The translations under genes and the position numbers were made by a program. The notes under the pieces were generated by a model. That model saw only the letters and a list, made by a program, of their open reading frames with translations, did no database searches and was not told where the DNA came from. A stretch of 64,000 nt of DNA, taken from contig WHVD01000138.1 in assembly GCA_015178975.1 (NCBI GenBank), positions 156,018 to 220,017 of the forward strand. Direction: 5' to 3'. Below, one piece after another: positions 8,213 through 39,539 of this stretch. How positions within the stretch are numbered: position 1 is the stretch's first letter; each line of letters opens with the position of its first letter. The stretch comes from Hysterangium stoloniferum (lineage: Eukaryota > Basidiomycota > Agaricomycetes > Hysterangiales > Hysterangiaceae).

Positions 8213-11200
8213 ATGATTCCTATCTTTAAGCGTTTGAAACGAGCCTTTCTTTTATACCCTGCAGAGTCAGAACCTCTGGGTTCTTTTCTGATCCCTCCCC
8301 AGCAGTTACGGTCTAAAGGTTCCTTATCGCCTTCAGTGGGACTACTAAGTGATACATTCCAATCCAACGCCCAAGAACAAACCCGCTCTCAGGGTTTCGG
8401 CATCGAGGAGCTTGAACCAGGTATTTCTCCGTTAATCGAGTAAGCAATCAAACTTCGAATTTTATTGTCCACCAAGAGTCAACTACGTCTTTTACAGCAT
8501 CGTGGCCATCCACGGCTTGGATGGCCATCGTGAAGCATCGTGGACAGCAGACAACGGTAAACTGTGGCTTCGTGATCTCTTGCCCCGGGATGTACCGTCC
8601 GCTCGGATTTTGACATATGGGTATGATGCCTACACCGAGAGCACGGCTACATCATCCACACAGACCTTGGATGATCACGCAGAGAACTTCCTCGCACGCC
8701 TGGCTGCGTTAAGAGCAACTTCAGATACTACGGTTCGTACAATTCAAGTCTAGCGAACTTGTCGTTTCCTCATAAGAGGTGCTCCAGAAACGGCCCATAA
8801 TTTTTATTGCGCACAGCCTTGGCGGGATTATTCTCAAACACGTAGGTTGATTTCTGTAATAATTATCCGGCTGTAATTCAATGTTGATGCCTGTCAGGCT
8901 TTGATACGAGCCAGTCAGGCACACAGAGGTCACCTGGTCGAACACAAATGGATAGCTTTGTCTACATATGGTATTCTATTCCTCGCCACACCACATCAAG
9001 GCACCACTGCCATTACCAACCCTGCTAATCAATTGCTGAAACTTGCATCGCTATCCAGCAAAACTAATAATGTGTTGTTGAAGCACTTGATTTCCAACTC
9101 TGAGTGGTTGCAGCAGCAGTCTTCTTCTTACAGTGCAATAAGTACAAATTTCCATACCAAATTCTTTCATGAGTCTCTTAAGACCGTTCTTCCTGATAAA
9201 AGTTCTCAAATTGTAAGCCTCCATAAGCTTATGACCCTGTACAAATTTACAGTGCCACTTACAGATTGTTCCGAAATTTTCTGCGATGATTTCAGGGGCC
9301 AATATGGAGGCGGTAGGGATGGCTAAGGATCATAATGGGATGACCAAATTTGCATCTGAAAGTGATGATGACTTCATTTTCATATCAATGACAATTCAAG
9401 ATATGATCAAGAAAGCACCACCCCCAATACAACTCCGGTGGACTAAGTTTGAGCATGCTGGTGAGAAATATTTATTAAATATTTGGGATATTGACATCAA
9501 TTGGTACAATAGAGGTGGAGTCCACAGGAATGACATACAGGGCCAAACTTCGCCCTAGTCCAAGATTCTTGGGACAGGAGGAATATCTTTCAACACTGAG
9601 GAAATTCTTTGGCCCTGATGATTCTCAGCCATGGAGGCACTTCCTTTTATATGGGATGGCAGGAGTTGGGAAGACTCAGATATGTTTGAAATTTATTGAA
9701 GATGTGCTGGCCAATGATTAGTAAGTAACAAGTGACTTCAATTGGGTCTATTCTATAGGTTCTCATTAATGAATCAGTAACTATTGGAGAATTGTCTGGA
9801 TTGATGCCACAGACACAATGACCTTACAAAATGGCTTTGCCAGTATTGCAGATGATCCTGATGTTAGAGCACAAGGTGTTGAAAGGTCCAGTGATGCAGT
9901 TGTGGAATGGCTGTCTCATAATAGAAAGAAGTGGCTCCTTATATTGGATAATGCTGATGGGATGGATGATGAAATCCTTCAATATTTGGACAAAATCAGG
10001 TTGATTCATGCCCTGATTACAAGCCGGAGTCCTGTTCTTGGGGCCCATGTACAGTCATGCATTGAAATTCTACCAATGGATGAAGACAGTGCTATTTCTC
10101 TGTTTTGGATTGCAGGAAAGCTTCAAAAGGAATCTGATAGTACAATGGTTACAATGTCAAAACATATTGTAACAACATTAGGTTCCTTGCCCCTTGCTGT
10201 GGACATTGCAGGAGCAACAATATCTGCAGGACTATGCACACTTGATGATTATTTGAAAATGTACCAAACACAGACAGCAAACTTGTTGGATGCTAACCAT
10301 CCTTCTCTGAAAGGAGCATCCAGATACAACCACACTGTGTATAGTGCATTGAATGTCTCATATAATCTCATTGAAACATCTGTCACCTTTTCTGAAACTG
10401 CACAGAATGCCTTATTCATCCTGAGAGTATTAAGTTACTTTCACCATCAGAATATCATGGAAACAATGTTCAAACAAGCTGCAGAGTCCATTCCCACAGT
10501 CATTAATGATGAACAACTGCAAACTACAACATCTGATCTTCCCACTCATTTGCTTAAATGTAATGAGGATGGAGAATGGACAAGCATGGAGTTTAGGCAG
10601 GCAATGCAAGTATTATGTGATTATTCCTTGCTATTTAAAGGTGATGATGCACATGGGTCTCTTTTTTGGACAATACATCCTGTGATTCATACATGGTGCA
10701 GAGACAGAGCTTTGAGGGGGAATAATTCTCTTTACATATGCACAGCAAGAGCTCTCTTAGTAGGAGCTATCCCAAGTGGAGATAGTATAGAGGATATTAT
10801 GAGACGAAGGAATATTTTACTCCACATTCAAGCATTTAGAAGTAGCAGCTGTGGTGGAAAGGATCTGAATGTTTATTATGATGACATGTTTAGCAAATTT
10901 TCAATGATATTGAGAGAATTTGGCCACTGGGAAATTGCAAATGCTATGCAGAAAATTTTATTGACAAAGAGAGACAATGTATTAGGTGCACAGCACTCTG
11001 ACACCATTGAAGCCAAGGCTAATTTGGCAAAAACCTACAGTGACCTGGGAAGGCTCAAGGAGGCAGAGGTGCTTCAGCTTCAGGTGTTGGAAGCCCAACA
11101 GCTTATATTAGGTCCAGAGCACCCTGACACCATTCTAGCCAAGGCCAATTTGGCAATCACCTACAGGGACCTGGGATGGCCCAAGGAGGCAGAGGTGCTT

Positions 11201-13366
11201 CAGCTTCAGGTGTGGGAAGCCCGACAGCTCATACTGGGTCCAGAGCACCCTGACACCATTCGAGCCAAGGCCAATTTGGCAAGGACCTACAGTGACCTGG
11301 GAAGGACCAAGGAGGCAGAGGTGCTTGAGCTTCAGGTGTTGGAAGCCCAACAACTCATACTAGCTCCAGAGCACCCTGACACCATTCTGGCCAAGGCCAA
11401 TTTGGCAAGCACCTACAGTGACCTGGGAAGGACCAAGGAGGCAGAGGTGCTTGAGCTTCAGGTGTTGGAAGCCCTACAGCTCATACTAGGTCCAGAGCAC
11501 CCTGACACCATTCTAGCCAAAGCCAATTTGGCAAGGACCTACATTGAGCTGGGAAGGCCCAAGGAGGCAGAGGTACTGTATCTTCAGGTGTTGGAAGCCC
11601 AACAGCCCCTACTGGGTCCAGAGCATCCTTACACTATTCAGGCCAAGGCCAATTTGGCAAGGACCTACAGTGAGCTGGGAAGGCCCAAGGAGGCAGAGGT
11701 GCTTGAGCTACAAGTGTTGGAAGTCCGACAGATCATACTAGGTCCAGAGCACCCTGACACCATTCAAGCCAAGGCCAATTTGGCAAGGACCTACAGTGAC
11801 CTGGGAAGGCCCAAGGAGGCAGAGGTGCTGGAGCTACATGTGTTGGAAGCCCGACAGCTCATACTAGGTCCAGAGCACCCTGACACCATTTTAGCCAAGG
11901 CCAATTTGGCAAGCACCTACAGTGACCTGGGAAGGCCCAAGGAGGCAGAGGTGCTTGAGCTTCAGGTGTTGGAAGCCCAACAGCTCATACTAGGTCCAGA
12001 GCACCCTGACACCATTTTAGCCAAGGCCAATTTGGCAAGCACCTACAGTGACCTGGGAAGGCCCAAGGAGGCAGAGGTGCTTGAGCTTCAGGTGTTGGAA
12101 GCCCAACAGCTCATACTGGGTCCAGAGCACCCTGGCACCATTCGAGCCAAGGCCAATTTGGCAAGGACCTACAGTGAGCTGGGAAGGCCCAAGGAGGCAG
12201 AGGTGCTTGAGCTACAAGTGTTGGAAGTCCGACAGATCATACTAGGTCCAGAGCACCCTGATACCATTCAAGCCAAGGCCAATTTGGCAAGCACCCACAG
12301 TGACCTGGGAAGGCCCAAGGAGGCAGAGGTACTTCAGCTTCAGGTGTTGGAAGCCCAACAGCTCATACTGGGTCCAGAGCACCCTGGCACCATTCGAGCC
12401 AAGGCCAATTTGGCAAGGACCTACAGTGACCTGGGAAGGCCCAAGGAGGCAGAGGTGCTTCAGCTTCAGGTGTTGGAAGCCCAACAGCTCATACTAGGTC
12501 CAGAGCACCCTGGCACCATTCTAGCCAAGGCCAATTTGGCAAGGACCTACAGTGACCTGGGAAGGCCCAAGGAGGCAGAGGTGCTCGAGCTTCAGGTGTT
12601 GGAAGCCCGACAGCTCATACTAGGTCCAGAGCACCCTGGCACCATTCGAGCCAAGGCCAATTTGGCAAGCATCTACAATAAGCTGGGAAGGCCCAAGGAG
12701 GCAGAGGTGCTCGAGCTTCAGGTGTTGGAAGCCCGACAGCTCATACTAGGTCCAGAGCACCCTGGCACCATTCTAGCCAAGGCCAATTTGGCAAGGACTT
12801 ACAGTGACCTGGGAAGGCCCAAGGAGGCAGAGGTGCTTCAGCTTCAGGTGTTGGAAGCCCAACAGCTCATACTAGATCCAGAGCATCCTGGCATCATTCA
12901 AGCCATGGCCAATTTGGCAAGGACCTACAGTGACCTGGGAAGGCCCAAGGAGGCAGAGGTGCTTGAGCTTCAGGTGTTGGAAACCCAACAACTCATACTA
13001 GGTCCAGAGCACTCTGACACCATTCTAGCCAAGGCCAATTTGGCAAGGACCTACAGTGACCTGGGAAGGCCCAAGGAGGCAGAGGTGCTTCAGCTTCAGG
13101 TGTTGGAAGCCCGACAGCTCATACTAGGTCCAGAGCACCCTGGCACCATTCGAGCCAAGGCCAATTTGGCAAGGACCTACAGTGATCTGGGAAGGCCCAA
13201 GGAGGCAGAGGTGCTTCAGCTTCAGGTGTTGGAAGCCCAACAGCTCATACTAGGTCCAGAGCATCCTGACACCATTCTAGCCAAGGCTAATTTGGCAAGC
13301 ATCTACAATAATCTGGGAATGTACAAGGAGGCAGAGGTGCTGGAGCTTCATGTATTGGAATCCTGA
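8213..13366 (+). CDS. NOD-like receptor: SesB-like hydrolase / NB-ARC / 19 TPR
   Basis: A fungal STAND/NLR protein of about 1,610 residues. I place seven exons: 8213-8439, 8498-8732, 8779-8841, 8898-9212, 9265-9460, 9513-9720 and 9778-13366. All introns are GT-AG, 46-58 bp, and they preserve frame through every junction. Residues about 75-290 form an alpha/beta-hydrolase of the SesB-like type: HGLDGH oxyanion region, then IAHSLGGI with the nucleophile Ser near residue 167, and LATPHQG. The NB-ARC domain follows: GMAGVGKTQI (Walker A, about 393-402), KKWLLILDNAD (Walker B, about 466-476), LGSLPLAVDIAG (GLPL motif, about 549) and WTIHPVIHTW in the position of the MHD motif. TPRs fill about 815-1610. 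Family knowledge suggests ligand binding by the TPRs triggers NB-ARC oligomerisation and activates the hydrolase in non-self recognition or regulated cell death. ATG 8213 was preferred because MIPIFKRLKR is typical for the family. It appears intact except for a possible premature stop (see findings). Confidence 0.9.
10982..13366 (+). repeat. TPR-coding tandem array, 19 units of 126 bp
   Basis: Eighteen complete units and a shortened 19th, each 126 bp (42 codons), with no insertion or deletion between units. The core of each reads LGPEHPDTI, AKANLARTYSDLGRPKEAEV and LQVLEARQLI with few changes. Positions 7 (D/G), 10 (L/R/Q), 17 (R/S), 32 (E/Q) and 39 (Q/R) vary between two or three residues in shuffled combinations, while the rest is almost fixed. 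Units 6 and 10 share the rarer VRQII ending, which suggests a block of four units was duplicated. This is the pattern of unequal exchange and conversion within an array. Each unit is a TPR of the 42-residue kinesin-light-chain type. Confidence 0.97.
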
Positions 13367-13754
13367 CAGCTCATACTAGGTCCAGAGCACCCTCACATCA
13401 TCCTGATCAAGGCCAATTTTGTTAGAATCAGAAATACAATATCTATACTAGGCAGACTGTTATAAGTCCCATTTGGCATCAGTAACTGGTTGTTACTGTT
13501 ATATAACTATCTACTAATACTTGTGTTGGTACTTTGTTTTTTAAAAGCTAAATTGTACTTATTTCCTAGTAAAATACTGCATGTGAGATATCATTGGAGA
13601 TTTTTCATCCTGTAGCTGTCTTTATTAAGGAGGATAGTCACAATTTATTGAATATACAAAATTTTATAGAATAGTCCTCATATTTTAAGTGAGTGTATTT
13701 TTCCTGCCCATGCCCACATGTCCCAGGAGCCCATATTCCACCACCCCAAGACGG
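13367..13754. other. NLR 3' flank with a half TPR remnant
   Basis: From 13367 to about 13420 the sequence still reads as a TPR unit in frame (QLILGPEHPHII...KAN), then diverges and meets TAA at about 13464. The rest is AT-rich and without a gene. It probably holds the NLR 3' UTR. The first bases of a decayed gypsy gag begin near 13755. Confidence 0.6.
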
Positions 13755-13925
13755 TCCAGCTGCTGCTCCTGGGGAACTTCCAGGAGGAACTGGTTTTTGA
13801 AAAGTCAACGAAGACTTCCTCATGGTGACGTTACGGGGTGGTTCCAGACTTGCAGGTCTCTGGTGAGGTTTTGAACTACTTGGGGTTATCAAAGATCTTG
13901 GTGTTTGGTTCTTGCCAGTGGTCAT
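13755..13925 (-). pseudogene. Gypsy gag N-terminal fragment (element C)
   Basis: The minus-strand frame starts MTTGKNQTPRSL and carries RPASLEPPRNVTMRKSSLTF, nearly the same as the gag N-terminus of element A at 15423. Homology ends after about 55 codons, where the frame runs into unrelated sequence. Together with the LTR fragment to its right, it is a truncated 5' end of a gypsy copy lying minus-strand. Confidence 0.8.
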
Positions 13926-15422: not shown

Positions 15423-18400
15423 ATGACCACTGGCAAGAACCAAACGCCGAGATCCTCTGTGACCCCGAGTAGTTCAAAGCCTCGTCAAAGACCTGCAAGT
15501 CTGGAACCACCCCGTAATGTCACCATGAGGAAGTTTTTGTTGACTTTTCAAAAACCAGCTCCTCCTGGAAGTCCCGTCGAAGCAGTAGCTGGACCGTCAA
15601 CGGATGCCCCTCCAAGTCCACGAGAAGAACATCCGTCAACTGAGCAGTTGAACGTCCCTGGAGCTAAGGTTGAAATTACCTGTGCTTCTGAACCCGTTCT
15701 CTTGTTCCCACCTAAACAGGTCATCCTTAACCAATTCTTTAGGGGTCATATGATTTACGCCCAGCCCATCGACTTACAATGGGATGCGTACTACGCCGAT
15801 CGAATTTCTGCGGATCAGGTTACTCCCTTTGTGGAGGAGTACAATACGGACTACCCCCTCTTACCGGTGACTGTAGCAGTCTGGTTAGGTCGTTATCAGG
15901 CTATTTTATCAGCGCAAGATCTATTCACACGACCTGGAACCCTTGAGGATCTAACTTGCTCGATCCCCGAATGGTCGAGCGAAGTTACTTCTGTTATGGA
16001 AGGAGGGAGGATGGTTCTTAAACAAGAAGTGTTCTCTTCATTCCTCAAAGCGTTCCGCACGCACGATGACGCGTTACAAATCCTTCACGACCTACTCGGT
16101 GGGGATCACATCGTCCCCAAAGTCGACTACCAGTATATATACATTCAGATGCTGGAGGAGTCTCTTAACGGGATTACTCGGAATTCTTCGTTTGCATATT
16201 TCACTTTAAGGGGTCGGTTAAGGCGAAATCAGAGAAGACTCGATAAGATGGTTTTGGAGGTGCTTTACCCTTATGGTGATTCCATCCAGGTACCCGATTC
16301 GCCCATCTCCACAACAAGTTCGTTTGTTCGTACCCTGAATGGATCTCCCGACACTCGTTTCCTTCATTCGCTCAATCGTCCCATTATTTTGCAAGACTTC
16401 CCGTCTGACATGAGGATGCAGGTTGCGGAATGTCTTCAGGAAAAAGGAATGGAAATATGCATCCCCCTCTATCAGCCTCAACCTCGTCGACCTTTGAATA
16501 CGGTCAAAATCAAGAGAGGGATTGCGATGGAACCTAGCCCTACCCCCCATCAGGAAATTCACCGCTCTCGCGTCACGTTCGAAAGAATCCCTGGCAATAC
16601 AAACATGCGTGATGAACCAACTACGACTAGATATTGATCAGTCGCCAACAGGGTCAACCGTCTTTCTCCACTGCATTCACCAAAGGTATAGCTGGTCAGG
16701 TTGCTGGTCGAGGATCGCCGAATCCAGTCGATCCTCGCCATTCCCTGCCGATCTCCTCCAACCCTTTTCTGCCATCAGGAGGACCTCCTAGTAATTCATC
16801 TGGGAGTTCTAGTACCTCAAGCGATGGAGGGAATTCGGGACGTGGGGGCGTCACGGTAGAGTACCTAGCTCTCCCTTTTGAACTCCGATGCAACCTCGAG
16901 CCAGCGGGCCTATCGATGACTTACCTAAGGATAAAAGGATCGCTCTTAACACCAACGACATCAAGATCAAATGGTCAGACCTTCCCGAATACGATGGGAC
17001 TCAATCCAAGGCGTTGGATTACATCATGGATATTATGAGCCTCTCGGAGATCTCTGACTCCATGAGTACATTGTTGGGAGTCACTCTGCCAAGATGACTC
17101 ACCGGTGGTGCTAAGATCTGGTGGAGCACCCTAGACCGTGAACATCGCACTGAGTTTAGTCGATCTCACGGATCGTTTCTTTGGGGCATCGTAGAAGGAT
17201 TACTTGGAACTCGTTGGTGTGAATCCTTGGCTCTAGAATGGGAAGCCATGAAATTTCGACAGGCTGGTCACAATCATGAGACACCCATTCATTACATTCA
17301 GCGAAGGGTCAAGCTCTATTGATTCTTGTATGGGTTCCACCAAAACCGGAAGGACGAAATGCACAGACTTATCCTGACACTGCCCACGGAATGGCTTTAT
17401 CTTCTACAGGGACAACCTATCGACGACATCATGAGCCTACAGACTTACGCGAACAATTTACAAGAGGCGTTGATCAATGCTTGGGTTCAAACACATCAAG
17501 AGCGTTATCGGTTCCAAAAGCCTAGAGTCATGATCGCCGAGCAAGACAAGTCGGATCCCTGGCATGAGGAAGAGCACTCTGGAAGAATCGACCCCACTAA
17601 CCGAGGTCACGTCCTCCTTGGCGAACTCGAGGATAAAACCGTCCCTAGGAGATCGAACGCTAAGCAGGGTAAGAAACACGGCAAGTTCTTTTTTGAACAG
17701 AGTGACAAGAAAAGCATCGCCAAACCTCCGAAGGAGTGTTGGATTTGTGGGAGTTTAGAGCATTTCAAGATCGACTGCCCCCATGCGGGCAGGATGTCGC
17801 ACTATGTCTCTATTAACAAGTGCTCCGCGCAGAACCCAATGGAAGAGGCGGAGGATCAAAGGGCTTATGAAATGGTTTATGGATTAAGTGTATAGGGACA
17901 AGTACATAACATTGATGAGGAATCGATTTTCATTTCTGTCTACCTTCCTCAGTCAGAGGACAGCATCGTTTCAGATGTGAAAGCATCCTCGAATGAGAAC
18001 GAGACATCGCAAGTGTATGTTTCTATATCAGACCATGATTTTCTCGAGAAAGGAGACTGGCTAGACGCTCATCGTCAGAACCGTGAAGGTCTGACTGAGA
18101 CGAGAGTTTTATCGCGACCTGAACCTCCCACCATTGAGGAAATCGTCGATGAGGACGCATTTGCAAACCGATCTAAGGAAATAAGTCAGACCTACATTAT
18201 AGAAGACCCCTCTGAGTCAGAGGGATCGGAGGAGGAGAGCTTCCCCTTTGACCCAGGGCAATTACCTGACTTAATTCCTTGCGATGAGTCAGACTCTGAA
18301 GCAGACGACTCTATTTCGAACGCCACTCCCAAGGTACCTAACGGTAGATGTATCAGGAGGAACGTCAAACTGGCTGCAAGAAAAGAAAGCAAAAGACCTA

Positions 18401-20570
18401 GAGTTCAATACCCCCGATCCAGTCGACTTATGAAAGAGGATTCGACTATTATTTATCGCAGAAGGGACCCTCCGGGTGGATATTCCAGTATTGGGATTTC
18501 AGCATTACACATCTACAGATGCATAGGAAATTCAGAAGCCTCAAATCCTATTAAAATCAGGCTGGATGCTGGGGCTGACCTCTCCTTAATCTCGGAGGAT
18601 TTCTATAAGGAACTAGAGGACCGCCCTAAACTCAAGCAAGGACTCAAGCTGCATCTCATACAACTTACCGGTAATGCCAAAGTATTAGGATACGTCAATG
18701 TCGGACGACACCGGTATACTCCTTAAATTTACCGCTGAAATGTATGTTGTCCGAGGTATGACCTTCCCGATCCTTCTTGGAGAAGACTTTCACGTGAACT
18801 ATGAGATCGGGACATTGCGAGACCAACCGCTGGGTTCCAGATTGATTTTGCCTGGGAGAGCGGGATCTATCCCAGCCAGTTCTTCCAAGGAGCCGCAGCC
18901 TTTAACCTTTTCGATTAGCAAGATCCCCTTTGAGGAATTAGCCAATGACTCGCCTGAATTGACTTCCAAACCAGACAAAGGAGTGCATACTGAAAGAGTC
19001 GCACGGGCCTTACAAGATTGTACTATAGAACTGCAATCGGCTCGATTAGTACCAATCTTTGTAGGAGATCTTATTGGTGGCCAATGGATAGTCGAGGGAG
19101 TTGTCTTGCAGAATGATGATGGGAGTATACTAGCTGCTCCCACCACCGCCATCTCTAGGGAACATGCCGCAATACCTCTCGCTAATCCCTCTCTGATGCC
19201 AAGAATCATCAGACGAGGGGAAACCGTTGGATTAATTCATGACGCGAACAAATGGGCCCAGACTCCTAGATCTTTGACTGAGAAAGCATCGATGCAGTCA
19301 ATGGCAACCAAGATCACCCATCCCGTTGAGAGTCTATCAAAAATAGAAGAGGAGCGTGTCCTGAATCCTCAATCCTCTGGACTGCCCCCAGAACGGGAAC
19401 TCGCAGACGATTTCGACCCGGCAGGTCCTAAAACGTCAGAGGTTGCCACCACGGAAACGTTTCATGCGGAAGATCTGCATAAGCTGGTTAACTTAGGACC
19501 TGACATCCCTACCGAGGTCTCCTCCCACTTGGAGTCGGTATTAACTAAGAATGTCCTAGCCTTCGGAGTAGACGGGCGACTGGGACAAGTGGATGTCAAG
19601 GTCAATGTCCCATTGAAAAAGGGTGCACAACCTATTTCAATGTCAATGTTCCCAACCTCCCCAGCTAATAGGAAAGTCATTGATGAACAAATGGATACTT
19701 GGTTCCAACAGGGAGTAATTGAACTGTCCAAGAGTCCTTGGGGGGCGCCAGCCTTTGTTGTCTATCGCAACGGGAAACCACGAGTAGTGATCGACTATAG
19801 AAAGTTGAACAGTCTAACAGTTCCCGACGGATTCCCGCTGCCACACCAGTCGGAAATCATGCAAGCGCTTTCGGGCTCCAACATCTTATCTTCCTTTGAT
19901 GCACTAGCCGGTTTTACCCAACTTGAAATGTTAGAGGAAGACAAGCCGAAGACCACCTTCAGATCCCATCAAGGACTGTGGCAATTCAGGAGAATGCCCT
20001 TTGGACTTCGTAATGGACCTTCTATATTCCAAAGGGTTATGCAAACCATACTTGCACCTTACTTATGGATATTCTGTCTGGTTTATATTGACAACATCGT
20101 GATATTTTCTAAGACATGGGACGATCATCTAGAACATTTAGATCAGGTTTTACAAGCCATAATTGCCGCAGGAATCACTCTCTCACCCAAAAAGTGCTAT
20201 GTAGGGTATAATTCGATTCTACTACTAGGACATAAGGTGTCTAGACTCGGCTTTTTGACCCATCAAGAAAAGGTCGCCGCTATATTAGAATTGGCTACAG
20301 CTTCTAAGATAGCGGATCTTCAACGTTTTCTAGGAATGGTTCTGTATTTCTCTGCGTATATACCATTTTACTCCTGGACGGTCGCTCCACTTTTCAACCT
20401 CTTGAAGAAAGGAGTTCGTTGGAATTGGGATTCTGAACACACCCGAGCTTTTGAGGACATCAAGGTTGCGTTGAGCTCAGCTCCAGTACTCGGACACCCC
20501 GCAAACGGTATGCCTTATCGGTTATACACAGACGCTTCGGACTTTGTGCTAGGATGTTGTCTCCAACAAA
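15423..20570 (+). pseudogene. Ty3/gypsy gag-pol, frameshifted and 3'-truncated (element A)
   Basis: The longest retroelement coding region here. Gag opens at 15423 (404 codons), then passes through frameshifts at about 16630, 16890, 17098-17326 (with a TGA near 17323), 17895 and 18700. The zinc knuckle CWICGSLEHFKIDC lies near 17740-17780. The aspartic protease appears near 18560 as LDAGADLSL, with Ala where Ser or Thr is usual after the catalytic Asp. Reverse transcriptase follows: VIDYRKLNSLTVPDGFPLP, MPFGLRNGPSIFQRVM and VYIDNIVIFS (about 20085), where the second Asp of YIDD is Asn. RNase H begins with LYTDASDFVLGC and is cut at 20570 by the fold-back element. Integrase and the 3' LTR are missing. 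It is certainly inactive on its own. Confidence 0.92.
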
Positions 20571-22109
20571 CACTGGAGGCATCCCAAGATTTTTGGAGTT
20601 GGAAAACCTTCAGAAAATCTTGTTATTTGGCCAAATTTTCTAAGTGTTTTGTGAATTGAAAAAATCTTTGAAAATTCTGAGTTTTAGTAGGTTTTTCTGA
20701 GGCCAAAAATTGGATCTGAAAATTCTAAAAATTTGCATCAGGAAATTATGAGGAAATATTGTTGGAAATAGCCTATTCTTTATGGATTTTCTGAATAAGA
20801 AAACTTTTAGAAAACCCTGTATTTTCTTAGGATTTTTCCACCTAACAAAATCCTATGAAAACTGTAATAATGTGCCTAGGAAAATCAATTGAAAACCACA
20901 TATTTCTACTTAATTCTGCCCCTGAGGAAAATTCAGTGAAAACTACGGTTTTCTGCCTGAAAAAATCTTGAGCCAAGACAAAGTTTTTTTAATGTTTTGT
21001 CAAGGGGAAAACCATGATGAAATTTGCAATTTAATTATACATAAATCATTGAATAATTATATATTTCAACAAAATTTTCCTTAGTCACAAACACTATGGA
21101 AATTCAAAAAATCTGTTTGTGAAATCATGAAGAAATTGATGATTTTCCATGAGTTTCTTAGAGGTTTTTCAAGGTGAGAAACCCTGAACCGATGTTTTGC
21201 AATTCAGCACGATTCGCAAATATTCGAAAGGATACAGTGCGATTCAGTGTGATTCACAAATGTTTGAAAAGATACAGTGTGATTCATTACAATTGGCAAG
21301 TGTTCGGGAATATTCAATGCGATTTGCAAGTTTTCAGGAGGCTAGAATGTGACTCTTTTAGACTTTTTGCAACTATTCTAGACTTTTTGCAACTATTCTA
21401 GACTCTTTGTGATTGTTTGCGACTGTTTGCAACTCTGATAGACTGTTTGCGACTCTTTTGGACTTTTTACGACTCTTTTGGACTTTTTGCGACTCTTTTG
21501 GACTCTTTGCGACTCTTTTAGACTCTTTGTGACTCTTATAGACTTGTTATGACTGTTATAGACTCTTTGCAACTGTTATAGACTCTTTGTGACTCATGTA
21601 GACTCTTTGTGACTTTTTGTGACTCGTTTAGATTCTTTGCGACTCTTTTAGATTCTTTGTGACTCTTTTAGATTCTTTGCGACTTTTTTAGACTCTTTGC
21701 AACTTACTCTTTGTGACTCTTTGAAAAGTTGCAAAGTTGCACAAAGTTGCAAAGTGTTCACATGAAGTCACAAAGTCACACAAAGTCACAAAGTATCGCA
21801 AAAAGTCGCGTTGCAAAAAGTCACAAAAGTGTCACAAATCATAGCAGTGTCTTCACACAATAATAATCTATGTAAAAAGCCTCCAAAATTTCTATTATCC
21901 TCTTTTCTCTATGACCACAAACAATGATACACTATACACACAGCACATGGAGAAAGGGAGGAAAAAAACGCATCACTGTCAATTATATAGATAATGTATG
22001 TTAAAAAGAAGCCGCAGCAAACCTGATATACAGTAGGAGGTACACATCGTATGTGAATTTGAAGCTGGGGGATGATGGCATGGAACAAGAAAATGGGGCT
22101 TGGGGCAGG
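20571..22109 (+). repeat. Left arm of the fold-back element
   Basis: Runs from CACTGGAGGC through an AT-rich part, then about 21220-21720 made of loosely repeated GACTCTTT(T/G)xx words, then CAAAGTCACA words, ending at CTTGGGGCAGGC near 22109. Each part is present in reverse order and complement in the right arm with few differences. Only about three copies of the 20-bp motif expanded in the other arm are present. Confidence 0.9.
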
Positions 22110-22976
22110 CAGTATCCAAGATGGCGGCAGCGGCAGGGGGCAGGCTGGGGTGATGGTGGGTAGGTACAGGTAGTTGAGTATCGATACCAGTATCATCAGG
22201 CGCAGGATATAAACGAGACATTGGTTATATTAAGTAGAATATACTTTTTACTTGTATAAATCTTGAAAGCTGGTGCAGTGCTGGCTGGGGCGGGGTGACA
22301 AGGCGGGGAGAGGTGCTGTGGGCATGATGGTGTGATATAATATGCTGAGCAAGAAAAAGGGAATCAAACTCCAAGTCTAGCTGGAGAGGATAGCAATAAA
22401 AGTGGGGGGGATAACCAAAGGGAACCGGCCAGAGGAGACAATGGCGAAACGTGATCACTCATCCATCCTATTCATATCTCCGTTTTCATCATCTGCATAC
22501 TGCTCCACAGACTGCCATGCTGCACATTTGCGGGGGACAGCGCAAGCGTGGTCCCCAGGCCCAACGGGTGCTGGTACGACTGGCGCGTCGTCGACGTGTG
22601 CGGGTGATGCGAGCCAGTATACAACGTGTGGTGCGAGTCGCATGCCTCCCCGCGAGAAATGGCCCGGCCCCACCTCCGCGCCCGATCCGCCACCCGCCGC
22701 ACCGCTCGAGCTGGTCGTGGTGGTGCTCGGCGAGCCCCCAGGGCCCTGCGGGAAAAACGGCGCCATCAGCGTCCCAAGCCCCAGCATGCTGCCCCCACCC
22801 CCTCCGCCGCTGCCACCCCTACTCGCGTTCCCCACACCACTGCCGCTCCCGCTGAGGCTGCCGTATCCGCTCCTGCCGTTCCCCGCGGCGCCACTACCAA
22901 GCCCAGGCGGGAAGCCCCCAAAGTCCACGCTCGAGCCGGTCTCGTCGGACCAGTTCTGCGCGTGGTACGGGGGTGC
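22110..22976 (-). pseudogene. Captured gene-like GC-rich segment in the element loop
   Basis: The loop is abruptly GC-rich at about 22500-22976, in contrast to the AT-rich arms. On the minus strand an open frame (23015 to 22455) reads a Gly/Ser-rich, low-complexity protein: APPYHAQNWSDETGSSVD, FGGFPPGLGSG, then Gly runs, Thr/Ser runs and a tail with SVEQYADDENGDM. It looks like a piece of a host gene, such as a disordered part of a transcription factor, taken up by the element, as in Pack-type transposons. The 22110-22450 part is less GC-rich and has no clear frame. No domain is recognisable, so the source gene is unknown. Confidence 0.5.
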
Positions 22977-24975
22977 GCCTGCCCCAAGCCCCATTTTCTT
23001 GTTCCATGCCATCATCCCCCAGCTTCAAATTCACATACGATGTGTACCTCCTACTGTATATCAGGTTTGCTGTGGCTTCTTTTTAACATACATTATCTAT
23101 ATAATTGACAGTGATGCGTTTTTTTCCTCCCTTTGTCCATGTGCTGTGTGTATAGTGTATCATTGTTTGTGGTCATAGAGAAAAGAGGATAATATAAATT
23201 TTGGAGGCTTTTTACATAGATTATTATTGTGTGAAGACACTGCTATGATTTGTGACACTTTTGTGACTTTTTGCAATGCGACTTTTTGCGATACTTTGCG
23301 ACTTTGTGCGACACTTTGTGACTTTGTGTGACTTTGTGACTTCATGTGAACACTTTGCAACTTTGTGCAACTTTGCAACTTTTCAAAGAGTCACAAAGAG
23401 TAAGTCGCAAAGAGTCTAAAAAAGTCGCAAAGAATCTAAAAGAGTCGCAAAGAATCTAAAAGAGTCGCAAAGAATCTAAAAGAGTCGCAAAGAATCTAAA
23501 AGAGTCGCAAAGAATCTAAAAGAGTCGCAAAGAATCTAAAAGAGTCGCAAAGAATCTAAAAGAGTCGCAAAGAATCTAAAAGAGTCGCAAAGAATCTAAA
23601 AGAGTCGCAAAGAATCTAAAAGAGTCGCAAAGAATCTAAAAGAGTCGCAAAGAATCTAAAAGAGTCGCAAAGAATCTAAAAGAGTCGCAAAGAATCTAAA
23701 AGAGTCGCAAAGAATCTAAAAGAGTCGCAAAGAATCTAAAAGAGTCGCAAAGAATCTAAAAGAGTCGCAAAGAATCTAAAAGAGTCGCAAAGAATCTAAA
23801 AGAGTCGCAAAGAATCTAAAAGAGTCGCAAAGAATCTAAAAGAGTCGCAAAGAATCTAAAAGAGTCGCAAAGAATCTAAAAGAGTCGCAAAGAATCTAAA
23901 AGAGTCGCAAAGAATCTAAAAGAGTCGCAAAGAATCTAAACGAGTCTACATGAGTCACAAAGAGTCTATAACAGTTGCAAAGAGTCTATAACAGTCATAA
24001 CAAGTCTATAAGAGTCACAAAGAGTCTAAAAGAGTCACAAAGAGTCCAAAAGAGTCGCAAAAAGTCCAAAAGAGTCGCAAAAAGTCCAAAAGAGTCGCAA
24101 ACAGTCTATCAGAGTTGCAAACAGTCGCAAACAATCACAAAGAGTCTAGAATAGTCGCAAAAAGTCTAGAATAGTTGCAAAAAGTCTAAAAGAGTCACAT
24201 TCTAGCCTCCTGAAAACTTGCAAATCGCATTGAATATTCCCGAACACTTGCCAATTGTAATGAATCACACTGTATCTTTTCAAACATTTGTGAATCACAC
24301 TGAATCGCACTGTATCCTTTCGAATATTTGCGAATCGTGCTGAATTGCAAAACATCGGTTCAGGGTTTCTCACCTTGAAAAACCTCTAAGAAACTCATGG
24401 AAAATCATCAATTTCTTCATGATTTCACAAACAGATTTTTTGAATTTCCATAGTGTTTGTGACTAAGGAAAATTTTGTTGAAATATATAATTATTCAATG
24501 ATTTATGTATAATTAAATTGTAAATTTCATCATGGTTTTCCCATTGACAAAACATTAAAAAAACTTTGTCTTGGCTCAAGATTTTTTCAGGCAGAAAACC
24601 ATAGTTTTCACTGAATTCCCTCAGGGGCAAAATTAAGTAGAAATATGTGGTTTTCAATTGATTTCCCTAGGCACATTATTACAGTTTTCATAGGATTTTG
24701 TTAGGTGGAAAAATCCTAACAAAATACAGGGTTTTCTAAAAGTTTTCTTATTCAGAAAATCCATAAAGAATAGGCTATTTCCAACAATATTTCCTCATAA
24801 TTTCCTGATGCAAATTTTTAGAATTTTCAGATCCAATTTTTGGCCTCAGAAAAACCTACTAAAACTCAGAATTTTCAAAGAGTTTTTCAATTCACAAAAC
24901 ACTTAGAAAATTTGGCCAAATAGCAAGATTTTCTGAAGGTTTTCCAACTCCAAAAATCTTGGGATGCCTCCAGTG
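22977..24975 (-). repeat. Right arm of the fold-back element
   Basis: Reverse complement of 20571-22109, lengthened by about 460 bp through expansion of a 20-bp tandem motif. Outside that expansion the arms match closely, including minor features such as the ACCTCTAAGAAACTCATGG and CAAATCGCATTGAATATTCC words. Confidence 0.9.
23441..23940. repeat. Perfect 20-bp minisatellite, 25 copies
   Basis: The unit AGAGTCGCAAAGAATCTAAA is repeated 25 times without a single change over 500 bp, with degenerate relatives on both sides. It is non-coding. The corresponding position in the left arm (about 21630-21690) has only about three imperfect copies. The uniformity indicates a recent expansion, or possibly collapse or mis-assembly of a longer array. 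Confidence 0.97.
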
Positions 24976-32282: not shown

Positions 32283-35059
32283 CCCTCCCTTAATCAGAAT
32301 GTAGTCCAACAAGATGTGAGAATGCTTTGACCTTTTGCCTGGTGAGTGGTTTTGTGAACATATTTGGTGGGATTATCATTCATAGTGACTGTTAGGATAC
32401 ATACAGGGTAGGTCTCCGGAGAAACCTGTGGAATATCTGGTAGGACTTGGCTTCAGCTTATAGGCTGCACCCTCGCTAGATCGTGTTGTCCAATTTCAGA
32501 CAGGCAGATGGGAATCCCAGGGAGTCTGGGTGGGGGTCGTGGGTCGTGAGTTGTAAGTCGGAGGTTGTGGGTCGTGAGTCGAGACTGGTGAGAGAGATAG
32601 ATACACCGGAGCCTGTGGGCTCTGACTAGTGCGAGCGGTGTGAATCAAGTAGGGTTTTAGAGTGGAAAATGTATTAGATTACTGGGGGGAATCTAAGCCA
32701 ATTTTCTGACTGGATTGTATGTACAACATCTGCCAGTTTAAATAGACCATGGAGTAAATGTCATACCGAATCCAGTAATAATGAAATGAAATGAGCAAAA
32801 CATAAAACGGGAATAGTAAACACCAAATTGGTGTTAGGAATGGGACGGAACGGAGTGGAGTCTGAATAGTGACAAATCATAAACTATAACGGGAAATGGA
32901 GTGGGAGCAGAGTCTGAATCGTGACAGGTCATTTGACTAAAACGGGAATGGGGCTCAGTTAGAGGGATGACAGGTATTCTGAGCAGGGTCCGGTGACTGA
33001 TGCGCAGGACGAGGTTGGAATTAGACAGAGACGGGGTCTGGTGAGTATTCCAGTGACTGAAAGACAATGTAACAAAGACGAATGTAGATGAGTCTGATGT
33101 ACGGAGTCCGGTGGGAATTCCGGTGAACTGATCATGGGTGCATATAAGTTGGTGCATATAAGTTGGTGCCCGGAGTCCAGTGGGATTTCCGGTCATAACA
33201 GTGACATAATGTATCAATACCAATTGTCTGTTCACCACATTGTGGATAAAATGATATCAGATATCAATATGTTTCATATGTGTGAAATTCATCATTTTTG
33301 ACAATAGCAATTGCAGATTGATTATCACAATGAATTGTAATAGGACATGTGAGGGGGCAGGCAATTCTGGCCAGGAATGCACATATCCAAAGTGCCTCCT
33401 TTGTAGTGTGAGTGGCAGCTATGTATTCTGCTTCTGACATTGACAGTGTGACAATAGGCTGCTTCTTTGAGCTCCAAGATATGGCACCTCCATCTATGAT
33501 GAAGACATAACCTGAAATTGAGTGCCGGTGCTCCTGTGTTTCCCAATCTGCATCAGTGAAGCCCTCCAATGCATTCTGTGAGTTTCTTCCTCTGTTTCTG
33601 AGTACTAACCATTAATCTCTGGTTCCTTTCAGATACCTAAATACCCTTTTTATGGCTTCCCAATGTGGGCATCCAGGATTCTGCATAAATTGTGCAAGGT
33701 GGGATACAGCAGACATTATGTCTGGATGAGTACCAAGTGCTGTGTATATGGCCTCTTGATAGGGGACATCCTGCATATCTTCAAAATGCTTGGGTGTATG
33801 TACTAGGTAATTGGGAGATGGCAAGACAGTGGTGTGGGTCTAGTGGTGCTGTTAGTGGTTTTGTATCTTGTAGACTGAAATGTGCTACAATTTTGTTGAT
33901 GTATGTACAATCATTGGGAAAATGATATTGTCCTTTTGGTGCAATTCCTTTTGACTTTGATCCCTAAAAGCCATTTAAGCTCTCCTAAGTCTTTGATCTT
34001 GAATTCAACATGCAATTGGTCCTTGAACATCATTATAGCTGATTTCAAATTCCCAGCTAGTGTCATGTCATCAACATCTACAGCAATGATTAGTGCATCC
34101 CCATTTGTGTACCTATAAAATACAGCATGTTCAACTTGACACATTGTAAATCTGATCCTGAACATACAAAACACCACATAGGTGTTCATACCATTCTTGG
34201 CCAGCCTGTTTTAGTCTGTATATGTATTGTGTGTTTGAGCAGACAAACCATATGCTCCTTTCCTGGGACCTCAAGACCTTTTGGCTGTCTCATATATATT
34301 GTTTCTGTGTGAGATATGCAGCATCAATGTCAGTTTGCTCTAGCTCCCAGTCATTTTGGGCAGCAATGGTGGCAATAGTATGAATTGTGGTGAGTTTTGC
34401 AGTAGGTGAAAACATCTCATTATAGTTGATTCCTTCTACTTGGGAAAATCCCTGCACTACAAACCTAGATTTTAGTCACTGATTTCACTGTTAGGGCCAT
34501 GTTTGTATATCATGACGACTTTACTGCCTATGATATTTGCATTCTTTGGTGGTTCAACAAGTTTTCACATCCCTGTATTGATGTGGTGTTGCATGTCCTT
34601 CTCAAGGGATGTTTTCCACTTTGGCCAGTCACCTCAATGTTTTGCCTCTTCAACATTTGCTGGTGGATTGTCCAGTACATGCATCGAGATTGCTGGTAAT
34701 GTATTGTCAAACTTGCTCTCAAGTTCTTTGCTGATATGTAATAGTGCTGCAACAGCTGCTGTATCTTTTGGCATTGGGATCTGTATGCCCTTGGGGAATG
34801 TGGGTCCTTTTTGACATGCTTCTGCTGATCCTTGTCCACTGGTGATATTGCAGATGTAAGCTGATGGTTTTCACATGTGATAGCCTTGACCTGATGTTTT
34901 GACTTCTGATAGTGGCATGGTTTCTTCAAAGTCTTCTAGGGGGTCTACATATGCATGCAAATTCAATTCCATTGATGATAATGACTTCAAATCTATACCA
35001 TTGATTGTACAAAACATGATCCAAAAAGCTCTATCTACAGTGCAAACCTGATGGACCAA
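32283..35059 (-). pseudogene. Ty1/copia pol remnant
   Basis: The minus strand carries, from right to left, a decayed RT (about 34930-34300), the VDVDDMTLAG active-site region and FKIKDLGELKWLLGIKV (33911-34189), the connection (ALGTHPDIMSAVSHLAQFMQ, 33612-33824), and RNase H (GFTDADWETQEHRHSISGYV, SKKQPIVTLSMSEAEYIAAT, HCDNQSAIAI; 33264-33569). Frameshifts and stops separate these blocks. A family-1 solo LTR cuts the end of RNase H at 32390. Integrase and gag are missing, and the 5' side is truncated near 35060. Confidence 0.88.
32390..33200 (+). mobile_element. Solo LTR, family 1, copy 2
   Basis: 811 bp, TGTTAGGATAC...GGTCATAACA, with a perfect 5-bp target duplication GTGAC (32385-32389 and 33201-33205). 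Inserted in the distal part of the minus-strand copia pol. Confidence 0.92.
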
Positions 35060-35698
35060 ATTTGATCAGCAAAGTGGTTGGTGTCAATATATATAGAAAT
35101 ACTTGAGCTAATATCATTAAACAGGGGATACTCCCAAAAGACCTATATACATTCCCAAGTCCTGTCCTAGTCCAAGATTTGTAGGATGGGAAAAATATCT
35201 CAGGAGACTCCAGAACTTTTTTACCCCTCAGAGTTCACACTCTGGGTGGAAGCATTTCCTGTTGTATGGTATGGAAGGAGTTGGGAAAACACAGATTTGT
35301 TTGAAATTCATTGAAGAACTCATGAACAATAGCTAGTGAGCTGCAAATCATTTGATTGCTCTTGCTAGTACTCAGTTAGTAATTTTAAGTAACTTTTCCA
35401 AGATTTTATGGATAGATGCCACAAATGCAGAAACTCTAGCAAATGGTATTTTAATTATTGCAGATGAGCCTAATGCAAAATTACATGATGTTGAAAAGTC
35501 TGTTGAAGCTGTTTTAGAATGGCTTGCACAGATTCAAAAGAAATACCTCTTTGTCTTTGACAATGCTGATGGAATGGATGGAGTGGTTAAAGACTATTTG
35601 CCACATATCCACTGGATTCATGTATGTATTACTAGCCATAATCCTAAACTGTGCAACAATGTGACAGATTTTCTAAAAGTTGATCCAATGGAGAGGGA

Positions 35699-36523
35699 TG
35701 TTAAGGCATGTGCAAAGCTTAGTGGAGGGTTTCCGGAGAAACCTGCAGATATTCCAGTAGGACTTGGCTTCAGCTTATAGGCTGTGCCCTCGTGAGATCA
35801 TAGCATCCAATTTCAAACAGGTGGATGGAAAACCCAGGGAGTCTGGGTGTAGTTGATACATATGTAGGTCGAGGGTTGATATGTTGAAGGACCAGTTGGA
35901 AAGCCCGTGGGCTCTGACAAGGTCAATAGTGAGCATGTGATATGAGAAATGGGGATGGAGTGACCAGTCAGAAAACCTGCAGGCTCTAATGAGGTCGATA
36001 GCATTGTGAGATGGGGATGAAGTGGGTATGTGCTAAGGGAGGACTTAGTCTGAAAACTTAGTTGATTTTCTGACCGGATTGTATGCACAACATTAGCTAG
36101 TTTATATAGACTGTAGAATGTATGCAATACCAAATCTGGTAATAATGAGATCCAAACAAGTAATCATGAAATGAGATAAGTAAACACCAAATTAGGTGTT
36201 AGGGGCAGAATGTAATGGAGGTGGAGTCTGAAACATGACAGGTCATTAGACCATAATGGGAACAGGGCTCAGTTGGAGAGCTGTTGGGTTATCCGGGCAG
36301 AGCCTGGTGACTGGGGCATGGAATGGGGTCGGACATAGACAGGCTTTGATGTGCATGGGTCCAGTGGGGTCCAGTGACTGATGCACGAGACACAGAGAGT
36401 TGGGTGTAGACAGGCTTGATGTCTGGGTCCTGGCAGGTTTTCTGGTTTAGCTGTAACTTGGTATAGCAAGTCAGGTGCATGTAGGATGGAGTCCAGAGCC
36501 TGGCAGGTCTTCCAGTCCTAACA
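35699..36523 (+). mobile_element. Solo LTR, family 1, copy 3, inside the second NLR
   Basis: 825 bp, diverged from the other copies, from TGTTAAGGCATG to CAGTCCTAACA, with the characteristic TTTCCGGAGAAACC and GGACTTGGCTTCAGCTTAT blocks. Perfect 5-bp target duplication AGGGA (35694-35698 and 36524-36528). The NB-ARC frame is consistent on both sides. Confidence 0.92.
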
Positions 36524-37329
36524 AGGGATGATGCACTTACTCTATTTAAAGCTGCAGCTAACTCTGACAATGAAACTGCTATTCAAGAACTGTCTAAACA
36601 AATTGTTACTACACTTGGCTTCCTTCCTCAACCATCTCAAATGGACTCTGTCCAGTGACAGAGTATCTGGTCATGTATAAAAAATATCAGGTGGATTTCT
36701 TTGATGCAGACAATCCATCAATGAAAGGAGTATCTGGATATAATCACAGTATTTATAGCACTTTAAAAGTGTCATATAGTATGATTGAGAAGAAGGCTAC
36801 AGAGTCAAGAAGTGCAAAAGATGGATTATTCATTCTGAAAGTTCTGGGATTCTTTCATCACCAGAATATTATGGAAACCATTTTCAAACAAGCTGCAGAG
36901 TTGCCACCAGCAACTACATGTGGTGGTATATTACAAACTACCACATCTGAGCTTCCAGATCAGTTACTCAAATCCAATGGTGATGGACAGTGGCTAAGTC
37001 TGCCATTCAGAGAAGCCATGCAGGTCTTTTGTGATTATTCACTCCTTTCCAGAGATCCTGCCACACAAAAGTCATTTTCTTGGACAATGCATCCTGTCAT
37101 TCTTTTGTGGATAAGAGACCAGGCACTGGGTATTGACAATGTCCCTCATTTGTATGCAGCCAGAGCACTAATAACAGGATGTATCAATATGTCTGATGAT
37201 ACAGGGAATGGCAAGGTGTTCCAACAAGAACATTTGCTACACATTGTAACAAATGAGGCAGCAATGAATGGGAAGAAAAAATATATATTATGATGATCTC
37301 TGTATGAGGTTTGCCTTTGTATACAAGGA

Positions 37330-39234: not shown

Positions 39235-39528
39235 TTAAGCAAAGTGTATAAAAAGAAGCTTGGGCCACTTGAGGGTCCTGTAAATGAATGTGTCCAATGA
39301 CAAATCCCTTGTTTCTTGTTTTCCATTTTCTATCTTGTGCATTCCATGTGGAAAATTCAGGAAACTTAACATAGTGAAGTAAATGGGCTGTTCTACACCT
39401 ATTGCATTTTTAGCATTGGCCTCAAAATATGCCATCAGCTTGGTCTTGGAATGATGGGCAGCATCCAAAACTTCTTCTGGACCATCCATGCCATCAAAGA
39501 TAACTAATTGTTTATTCTCTAAATGCAC
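39235..39528 (-). pseudogene. Helitron-helicase-like fragment
   Basis: A 97-codon frame with SKTKLMAYFEANAK, MLSFLNFPHGMHKIENGK and IYRTLKWPKL. The pattern KLxAYFEAN...EFPxxxVWxxxxKxW is typical of the linker between the Rep and PIF1 helicase parts of fungal Helitron proteins. Here the W positions are lost and no helicase motif follows, so only a degraded remnant is supported. Confidence 0.4.
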
Positions 39529-39539
39529 AGGGCTATTAC

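Follow-up and report, generated by a model that had tools for sequence, protein, structure and literature searches.

An apparently intact SesB-like/NB-ARC/TPR receptor gene in Hysterangium stoloniferum, with a proposed recognition mechanism

Dyrka et al. 2014 (PMC4986451) described Pa_2_10340 of Podospora anserina as a sesB-like/NB-ARC/TPR protein with highly conserved TPRs. In the parts of that article used here, most highly conserved TPRs are 42 aa long and carry a few diversifying positions per unit, located on the concave face, and high internal repeat conservation means over 85% across at least 100 aa. In Neurospora crassa, cell death by the patatin/NB-ARC/TPR protein PLP-1, whose partner is SEC-9, needs both the P-loop and the effector, and it has been argued that PLP-1/SEC-9 follows a guard model (PMC12881547). 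For the HNWD genes of P. anserina (het-d, het-e), Paoletti et al. 2007 (PMC1805685) proposed RIP, with its CpA bias, as a supply of mutations. CpG-biased hypermutation has been reported from Rhizoctonia solani AG8, at similar levels in genes and repeats (PMC4014442).

The gene analysed here lies in a 64,000-nucleotide stretch of contig WHVD01000138.1 (the window). It resembles Pa_2_10340 in its three domains in identical order, its conserved TPRs and its few variable positions per unit, and differs from it in having 19 units and 16 close paralogous loci and in being known here from one genome. With PLP-1 it shares an N-terminal lipid-type hydrolase effector, an NB-ARC and a TPR sensor, but the PLP-1 effector is a patatin and not a SesB-like alpha/beta hydrolase, and for PLP-1 the cell death and the partner have been demonstrated. 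The HNWD genes are like the family of the window gene in their concerted repeats, proposed repeat-targeted mutation and diversifying positions on a binding face, which for the window family is a predicted one; unlike the window gene they are built as HET/NACHT/WD40, and the mutation signature is CpA (RIP) there and CpG here. R. solani AG8 also changes CpG to TpG in genes, with TGA as the primary nonsense product, yet it does so in genes and repeats alike, whereas here CpG loss is concentrated in NLR bodies with the 5' end spared. The kind of receptor, with its repeat turnover and diversification, is already described through Pa_2_10340, and the window gene adds a well-preserved case with its 16 loci. 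Its mutational background would be the new element: a CpG desert that runs through NLR bodies across the family but spares the 5' end, and TGA codons that truncate arrays at a single set position of the repeat unit. Neither the CpG desert nor the CGA/TGA pattern is described in the parts of Dyrka et al. 2014 (PMC4986451) drawn on here, and among the papers seen in literature listings none dealt with fungal NLR methylation or CpG loss, which leaves absence unproven.

A sequence-only reading of this DNA had proposed a seven-exon gene at 8213-13366, and the reading frame, the GT-AG introns and the paralogue alignment bore this out. The model, which encodes 1602 aa, is one of four printed at the top splice-site score among 12,012 stop-free exon combinations and was picked by eye. 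It is supported because the intron boundaries and the ATG align with 16 paralogous loci, where the six introns have donor GT in 102/102 cases and acceptor AG in 99/102. The features are as follows.

8213..8439, forward strand: exon 1, with the ATG at 8213 (aligned in 16/17 copies) and a conserved N-terminal leader, MIPIFKRLKRAF...
8498..8732, forward strand: exon 2, where the SesB-like alpha/beta hydrolase begins (DUF676 at residues 78-214)
8788..8841, forward strand: exon 3, nucleophile elbow AHSLGG, Ser164 codon at 8815-8817
8898..9212, forward strand: exon 4, hydrolase core with ATPHQG
9265..9460, forward strand: exon 5, DHNGM with the presumed catalytic His, then linker
9528..9720, forward strand: exon 6, the P-loop exon, Walker A GMAGVGKT at 9653-9676
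9778..13366, forward strand: exon 7, remaining NB-ARC, winged-helix region, TPR array and stop TGA at 13364-13366
10964..13357, forward strand: 19 TPR units of 126 bp, unit k beginning at 10964+126(k-1)
13364..13366, forward strand: TGA at codon 3 of unit 20; the same codon in the 19 preceding units is CAA (10), CGA (7), AGA (1) or CTA (1)
13367..13419, forward strand: untranslated remnant of unit 20, the DNA repeat continuing past the stop
9001..13700, no strand: CpG desert over most of the gene

When residues 1-1119 were searched against Pfam, DUF676 was matched at 26.0 bits (cut-off 20.3), NB-ARC (PF00931, residues 381-603) at 41.0 bits (cut-off 23.5) and TPR_10 at 233 bits (cut-off 27.5). 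The name SesB was taken from the sequence-only reading and PMC4986451, while the domain call itself is DUF676. AHSLGG begins at residue 162; its serine, expected at about residue 167, is there but sits at 164. Walker A is found at residue 385, Walker B at residue 460 (9935-9952) and an MHD-like IHPVIH at residue 706 (10673-10696). HSxGG is kept in 14/14 aligned copies, as is DHxGM. The hydrolase effector with AHSLGG and the NB-ARC with Walker A and B had both been claimed, and Pfam and the motifs agree: the protein has an N-terminal hydrolase with a GxSxG-type Ser, whose activity is predicted, and the NB-ARC of the SesB-like/NB-ARC/TPR class of NLRs. The C-terminal superstructure-forming repeats of the class are represented by the 19 TPR units together with a fold prediction. 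A sequence search of the hydrolase against solved structures gave no matches at E 0.01.

The array holds exactly 19 units, as had been claimed, at 42-aa spacing, but the near-identity attributed to them did not stand. Mean pairwise identity is 83.3% in protein and 90.6% in DNA, and with an amino-acid range of 57-98%, "extreme" internal identity was an overstatement. The two end units are divergent; units 2-18 average 86.2% aa identity and so exceed the 85% over at least 100 aa of PMC4986451, while inclusion of the end units gives 83.3%, both computed as plain pairwise identity and not with the program of that study. TRF reported 19.3 copies with 91% matches and a score of 3971, extending to 13419. 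Variation among units is concentrated at a few positions per unit. A higher-order repeat period in the window array was rejected, since none of the lags from 1 to 9 is prominent. AF2 run on nine units from a single sequence returned helix pairs all along (pLDDT 84, pTM 0.50), and Foldseek placed KLC1/KLC2 TPRs as best matches, while 4y6w/4y6c, which are TPR-like repeats from a putative kinesin light chain of P. anserina, came at ranks 33 and 37. The window TPRs match 4y6w/4y6c and KLC by sequence and by predicted structure, at 24-34% identity in the structural alignments listed, and share with them a repeat length class. Globally the model superposes poorly on KLC: the listed KLC matches reach a TM of at most 0.58, with rmsd values of 7-17 A. 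The array is predicted, from the model, to adopt a kinesin-light-chain-type TPR fold.

The window gene is a member of a large family and not a singular locus: its exon-7 NB-ARC query found 113 matching pieces in the genome, and 16 close paralogous loci are 64-88% identical to it in the NB-ARC. Arrays evolve in concert within genes of this family. Unit DNA identity was higher within than between genes in 15/17 copies, 253 of 324 units were closest to another unit of their own gene, and in one paralogue (L016) three-unit blocks were repeated with 0 differences. Among 15 copies in this one genome, the array frame held 8 to 36 units. Comparing tandem units across 14 genes (position-wise pN, gene bootstrap; not a formal selection test), we found that the ratio of pN to array-wide pS exceeded 1, as did its bootstrap lower bound, at positions 13, 16, 3, 26, 23 and 38 (lower bound 1.01 at the last); position 27, which is variable in the window gene, gave 1.07 (0.65-1.64). 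Helix A carries four of the diversifying positions on a single face, and five variable helix A positions share one face at P 0.028, with positions picked after the entropies were known. The variability of position 3 is confounded by CpG hypermutability. Within-gene homogenisation and pN/pS above 1 at a few positions per unit agree with the fast-evolving-receptor pattern that the sequence-only reading had suggested, and match what has been published for fungal NLRs whose repeats are highly conserved (PMC4986451).

The window gene, apparently intact, probably encodes a receptor of the fungal NLR (STAND) type, in the SesB-like/NB-ARC/TPR class, with a putative immune function. The similarly built PLP-1, with its P-loop- and effector-dependent cell death (PMC12881547), argues for this assignment. 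The TPR groove would read a non-self or altered-self ligand, binding would release the NB-ARC switch and lead to oligomerisation, and the clustered N-terminal hydrolases would then bring about death or arrest of the cell. Unequal exchange within the array may supply new units. The gene had also been named the best candidate in the window for a functional immune or incompatibility gene, and this holds because the other NLR found there, at 34.9-38.4 kb, carries several in-frame stops. There is nearly an even prospect that the receptor serves against mycoviruses or bacteria or monitors a self-state in the guard manner, with allorecognition as a by-product, and is not an incompatibility gene. The large family in one genome, with its 113 pieces, fits a repertoire of that kind, and the guard model argued for PLP-1/SEC-9 (PMC12881547) points the same way; the molecular mechanism is common to both functions, and no result here tells them apart.

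NLR bodies in this genome are CpG deserts with the 5' end spared. In the window gene, CpG is 0.04-0.08 in exon 7 vs 0.65 in the first six exons, and it declines gradually at about 0.5 to 1.1 kb of coding sequence past the ATG. Ten DEAD-box loci of 39 matches, taken as a non-NLR control, gave 0.84-1.07 (10/10), and three of eight NACHT-profile loci (from 38 matches) were flat in CpG, though those three may not be NLRs. Amino-acid composition was rejected as the cause by a simulation that drew codons at random 200 times from the pooled usage of exons 1-6: the window NB-ARC part had 2 CpGs where 43.5 were expected, the array 14 where 70.5 were expected, and exons 1-6 had 41 for 45.8, with the other four of the five copies simulated (of 17) alike. 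CpA and TpG are in excess in 15/15 arrays (CA 1.44-1.66, TG 1.08-1.40) and CpG is at 0.01-0.26. RIP of the Pezizomycotina type (CpA-biased C to T, TAA/TAG stops) was rejected: CpA is not depleted, and four of six in-array stops are TGA at codon 3.

The few CpGs left in the repeats look like hot spots that alter or truncate the sensor. Twelve of the 14 in the window array belong to CGA codons at variable positions 3 and 16, and among closely related units, CpG transitions account for 24/211 differences although CpG makes up 138 of 11,536 C/G sites, with 13/17 codon-3 changes being CAA/CGA. These three counts all favour CpG decay, without selection on a ligand surface, as the sole source of variation at positions 3 and 16, a reading we regard as somewhat doubtful. 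Against it, positions 13, 23 and 26 are also above pS, and their codons hold no CpG in the window array (codon 26 holds 18 in the pool); position 16 varies widely even where its codon is without CpG. The nearly invariant Arg30 avoids CpG codons (AGG/AGA in 312/313 cases), so it is chiefly where a site is variable that Arg codons with a CpG persist or are regenerated. In the proposed mechanism, CpG loss would add a further mutation source to exchange, turning CGA at positions 3 and 16 into CAA (Arg to Gln), and position-3 CGA may also become TGA, which would cut the array.

A joint reading, rather unlikely as a whole, is that methylation of NLR bodies steers both the diversification and the length of an immune receptor through contingency codons. 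Cytosine methylation of the bodies would set in some 0.6 kb of coding sequence past the start, and CpG would be erased there unless selected. In the window gene and the copies nearest to it, most surviving repeat CpGs would then be Arg codons at ligand-facing positions 3 and 16, where one deamination gives Arg to Gln or, on the other strand of the position-3 CGA, the TGA that cuts the array. Units so cut off might persist, silent, as donors on which later exchange could draw. If methylation is the cause, the route by which variation enters fungal recognition arrays can be tested directly.

It is distinctly unlikely that the window gene is a recently silenced or decaying copy whose frame has been open only from shortness of time and whose homogenisation is passive tandem-repeat turnover. 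In favour of this, 4/17 copies are not open in exons 1-6 with aligned boundaries applied, exon 7 of one copy (L019) is interrupted by an early stop, and the body of the window gene falls within a CpG desert such as methylated DNA would be expected to show. Its DNA repeat also goes on beyond the TGA; the stop sits inside a decaying unit, and therefore the copy may be shorter than its ancestor. On the other side, dN/dS of effector and NTPase is well below 1 against each of 12 paralogues (0.24-0.36 in exons 1-6, 0.32-0.48 in the NB-ARC region of exon 7), the catalytic residues are kept, and conserved positions are held before stops and decay after them. TGA at the often-CGA codon ends the window array and at least two paralogous arrays. 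Conserved-position decay rose across the stop from 2/286 to 11/308 cells (0.7 to 3.6%) in L016, from 2/440 to 14/154 cells (0.5 to 9.1%) in L017 and from 5.1 to 13.6% in L020, and therefore pre-stop units behave as translated. Although the frame is kept for 13 more units after the stop unit in L016 and for 6 in L017, each with one further TGA, this post-stop decay led us to reject read-through that would make post-stop units part of the protein as highly improbable.

The genome examined spans 111 Mb in 554 contigs, with the window at 156018–220017 of contig C44. Stop-to-stop frames include a single 1197-codon frame at 9773–13366 and several short frames upstream of it. Enumerating GT/GC-AG introns between the long frame and the upstream frames produced 12,012 stop-free combinations, so an open frame by itself is little proof of a gene model. 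The model used here, which shares the highest splice-site score with three other listed models and was selected among them by eye, is as follows:

Window NLR gene, exons 8213–8439, 8498–8732, 8788–8841, 8898–9212, 9265–9460, 9528–9720, and 9778–13366, product 1602 aa

This model was checked against relatives by aligning the 5′ regions of 16 paralogous loci (L011 and L026 among them) from the same genome. Of the 102 introns in the 17 copies, all start with the donor GT and 99 end with the acceptor AG, the exceptions being intron 5 of L015, L018, and L019; 16 of the 17 copies have the ATG, which only L025 lacks. The seven exons proposed by the sequence-only reading were borne out, and because six intron positions are common to the 17 copies, the model is well supported. 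Exons 1–6 are not open under the aligned boundaries in L014, L020, L023, and L026, and L019 has an early stop in exon 7. Pairing the window gene in turn with the 12 paralogues whose exon 1–6 frame is open gave dN/dS of 0.24–0.36 in exons 1–6 and 0.32–0.48 in the NB-ARC-coding stretch of exon 7; these comparisons all share the window branch, and L019 and L025 are included.

The full fungal STAND architecture claimed earlier (hydrolase, NB-ARC, and TPR array) was recovered through both Pfam matches and motifs. Residues 1–1119 matched DUF676 (26.0 bits, cut-off 20.3), NB-ARC (41.0 bits, cut-off 23.5), and TPR_10 (233 bits, cut-off 27.5), with these motifs:

Hydrolase: AHSLGG (Ser164), ATPHQG, DHNGM
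NB-ARC: Walker A GMAGVGKT, Walker B, TSR, LPLA, MHD-like IHPVIH

The motif names are those we take to apply, and the His of DHNGM is presumably the catalytic one; HSxGG and DHxGM are both found in 14 of 14 aligned copies. An N-terminal leader, MIPIF[KR]RLKRAF (window 8213–8260 and paralogues), is mostly conserved in the aligned copies and possibly serves in membrane or organelle targeting.

The array has 19 units, each exactly 42 aa, as previously described, but the accompanying claim of almost no divergence did not stand. Over all 19 units, pairs average 83.3% identity in protein and 90.6% in DNA; the means are 85.3% and 91.9% for units 2–19 and, in protein, 86.2% for units 2–18, and single protein pairs across the whole array range from 57 to 98%. 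Only with the end units left out does the array pass the published cut-off for highly conserved internal repeats. Variation in the window array is concentrated at positions 3, 13, 16, 23, 27, and 38. Among 324 units from 17 copies (352 found, less those scoring <26/42 against the consensus or containing stops), entropy was 1.8–2.7 bits at positions 3, 5, 13, 16, 23, 26, 27, and 38. In 14 genes (without L014, L023, and L026, first units dropped, and L016, L017, and L020 cut before the stop), pN exceeded the array-wide pS at positions 13, 16, 3, 26, 23, and 38; the lower bounds from bootstrapping over genes were 1.25, 1.26, 1.30, 1.23, 1.05, and 1.01, respectively. The ratio was 1.44 (0.98–2.02) at position 31 and only 1.07 (0.65–1.64) at position 27.

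A single-sequence AlphaFold2 model of nine units (pLDDT 84, pTM 0.50) folds into helix pairs in which helix A spans unit positions 12–27. Its variable positions 13, 16, 23, 26, and 27 share one side of the helical wheel, opposite the conserved positions (P 0.028 against random choices, the positions having been picked after the entropies were seen). The mapping of Pa_2_10340 published in PMC4986451, as excerpted, suggests that this would be the concave, ligand-binding side. The top-ranked Foldseek hits were the TPR domains of KLC1 and KLC2 (E from 4e-10); since TM is at most 0.58 and rmsd large, the likeness is of local fold more than global shape. P. anserina 4y6w and 4y6c appeared at ranks 33 and 37.

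By its anatomy, and as in other tripartite STAND receptors, the TPR groove would act as sensor, the NB-ARC as switch and oligomeriser, and the hydrolase as executioner. The closest tested relative in form that we found is PLP-1, whose cell death requires its patatin effector and P-loop (excerpts of PMC12881547); it is tripartite like the window gene, whose own function we infer. Excerpts of PMC4986451 describe sesB-like/NB-ARC/TPR genes with conserved TPRs, repeat number varying among strains, and concave diversification. The window gene shares the domain architecture and, end units aside, the TPR conservation, may share the concave diversification, and is a further case of this already described class.

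The family is large: in this genome the NB-ARC query matched 113 pieces, and there are 51 NB-ARC Pfam matches. In 15 of 17 copies (L013 and L026 are the exceptions), the units of a gene resemble one another more than they resemble those of other genes, and 253 of the 324 units have their nearest match within their own gene. In L016, three-unit blocks are repeated with no difference. The close paralogues L015 and L018 (G000:C533 near 75 and 86 kb) are oppositely oriented and separated by about 10 kb, and their arrays end identically (QLLGGEC*). A relative on another contig (L029–L030, G000:C157:172060 onward) has an open frame of 4247 aa with 83 TPR-like motif matches; its units are more varied, and it shows a CpG desert as in the window gene.

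CpG observed/expected in the window gene is 0.65 across exons 1–6, 0.04 in the NB-ARC-coding stretch of exon 7, and 0.08 in the array. When the coding sequences of 16 copies are binned, mean CpG per 100 nt is 5.1 at 400, 2.7 at 500, and 1.5 at 600, remains near 1 in places as far as 1000, and reaches 0.0 at 1100; CpG observed/expected upstream of the 16 paralogous loci is 0.61–1.16. The loss was observed in all 15 copies with array-frame units, window gene included (NB-ARC part 0.02–0.12; arrays 0.01–0.26, the two highest, L018 and L025, taking in sequence past the contiguous array). It extends to distant relatives (the C157 gene, L027, and L028, the last at 0.18 in its NB-ARC part), to 10 NB-ARC loci (L001–L010, of 51 matches; in L001, CpG returns at the 3′ end), and to five of eight NACHT-profile loci (8 of 38 matches). 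The three NACHT-profile loci with flat CpG may not be NLRs. DEAD-box controls were at 0.84–1.07 overall and 0.58–1.41 in 600-nt bins in 10 of 10 loci (of 39 matches). Codon choice does not account for the loss in the five of 17 copies compared. CpA and TpG are in excess, matching expectation after CpG deamination. The desert is a property of the genomic domain and not of coding sequence alone, because 3′ flanks are also low (0.00–0.16) in nine of 15 copies and window stretches at 30–31, 34–44, and 47–49 kb are equally CpG-low; the other six flanks, including that of the window gene, are at 0.42–1.14. In the NACHT-type locus L046 (G000:C50 near 39137–39610), the desert is broken by a CpG-rich stretch, as if by recent insertion.

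The CpGs that survive are unevenly placed. In the window array, 12 of 14 belong to CGA at codons 3 (seven) and 16 (five). Over 324 units, the 136 CpGs (summed by hand) include 59 at codon 3, 18 at codon 26, and 16 at codon 16, with at most six at every other codon. The form is CGA in 57 at codon 3; at codon 16, it is CGG in 11 and CGA in five. The nearly invariant Arg30 is coded AGG/AGA in 312 of 313. CGA at codon 3 occurs in eight of 15 copies (window, L011, L013, L015–L019), which counts against a family-wide rule; the remaining seven have mainly AGA, AGG, AAG, CAA, or CAG (for L020, commoner codons only). In the 85 closest within-gene unit pairs (1–4 differences; undirected, pairs non-independent), changes from CpG to TpG or CpA account for 24 of 211 differences, with CpG making up only 138 of 11,536 C/G sites. 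Thirteen of 17 codon-3 changes are CAA/CGA and two are CGA/TGA.

Six in-frame stops lie inside contiguous arrays. Four are TGA at codon 3 (two each in L016 and L017), and the others, both in L020, are TGA at codon 7 and TAG at codon 38; codon-3 TGAs of L018 and L021 fall in units outside the contiguous array and were left out of the count. TGA at codon 3 also ends the array in the window gene, L012, and L019, the end lying elsewhere in 11 of 14 listed copies. The L012 end stop may have an origin other than CGA, as L012 has no codon-3 CGA today. Contiguous arrays hold 66 CGA codons versus 829 CAA/CAG codons one C to T from a stop, so four of five C-to-T-type stops at a presumed former CGA would greatly exceed the 7% share (~1e-4 by hand, assuming origin from CGA, with events within a gene non-independent).

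Conserved positions deviate more after the first stop: in 2/286 cells before and 11/308 after in L016 (P 0.022), 2/440 and 14/154 in L017 (P 3e-7), and 5.1% versus 13.6% in L020 (no P value; exons 1–6 not open). Units before the stop therefore act like translated sequence and those beyond it like unread sequence, with the caution that several genes lacking an in-array stop likewise have more divergent last units. Some unread units stay near-identical to read ones (L016 unit 22 is one base from unit 6), which allows exchange across the stop and leaves it unproven.

Excerpts of PMC1805685 propose RIP, a repeat-targeted mutation process, as mutation supply in WD-repeat NLRs, and those of PMC4014442 report hypermutation with a CpG bias in a basidiomycete, its main nonsense product being TGA. 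Neither an NLR-body CpG desert nor a fixed truncation codon is described in these excerpts or those of PMC4986451, nor did either appear among the papers listed for fungal NLR methylation or CpG loss. The two features raise the window gene above routine annotation and form the less certain part of the account, coming from one genome and 10 non-NLR control loci. Methylation may be the cause of the desert, and the fungus may make use of it. That NLR-body methylation steers receptor diversification and length, with CGA at positions 3 and 16 as contingency codons (Arg to Gln, and at position 3 also to TGA), seems to us improbable, the more so because codon-3 CGA is confined to eight of 15 copies and because CGG outnumbers CGA at codon 16 of the pool.

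The window also holds a second, more distant SesB-family NLR, within the 34–44 kb desert, whose NB-ARC pieces are 37–49% identical. Introns could explain a few of its several in-frame stops. Its position and those of other elements are as follows:

34896–38410, second NLR, about eight degenerate TPR units
20571–24975, element with long inverted arms, pieces of 360, 775, and 336 nt, each 98% complementary, with 20-bp tandem repeats within both arms
15423–20659, retroelement-like frames (404 aa and 653 aa) in CpG-normal DNA, with a reverse transcriptase identified only by eye
13638–13925, minus strand, partial copy of the first of these in opposite orientation, ~270 bp past the NLR stop
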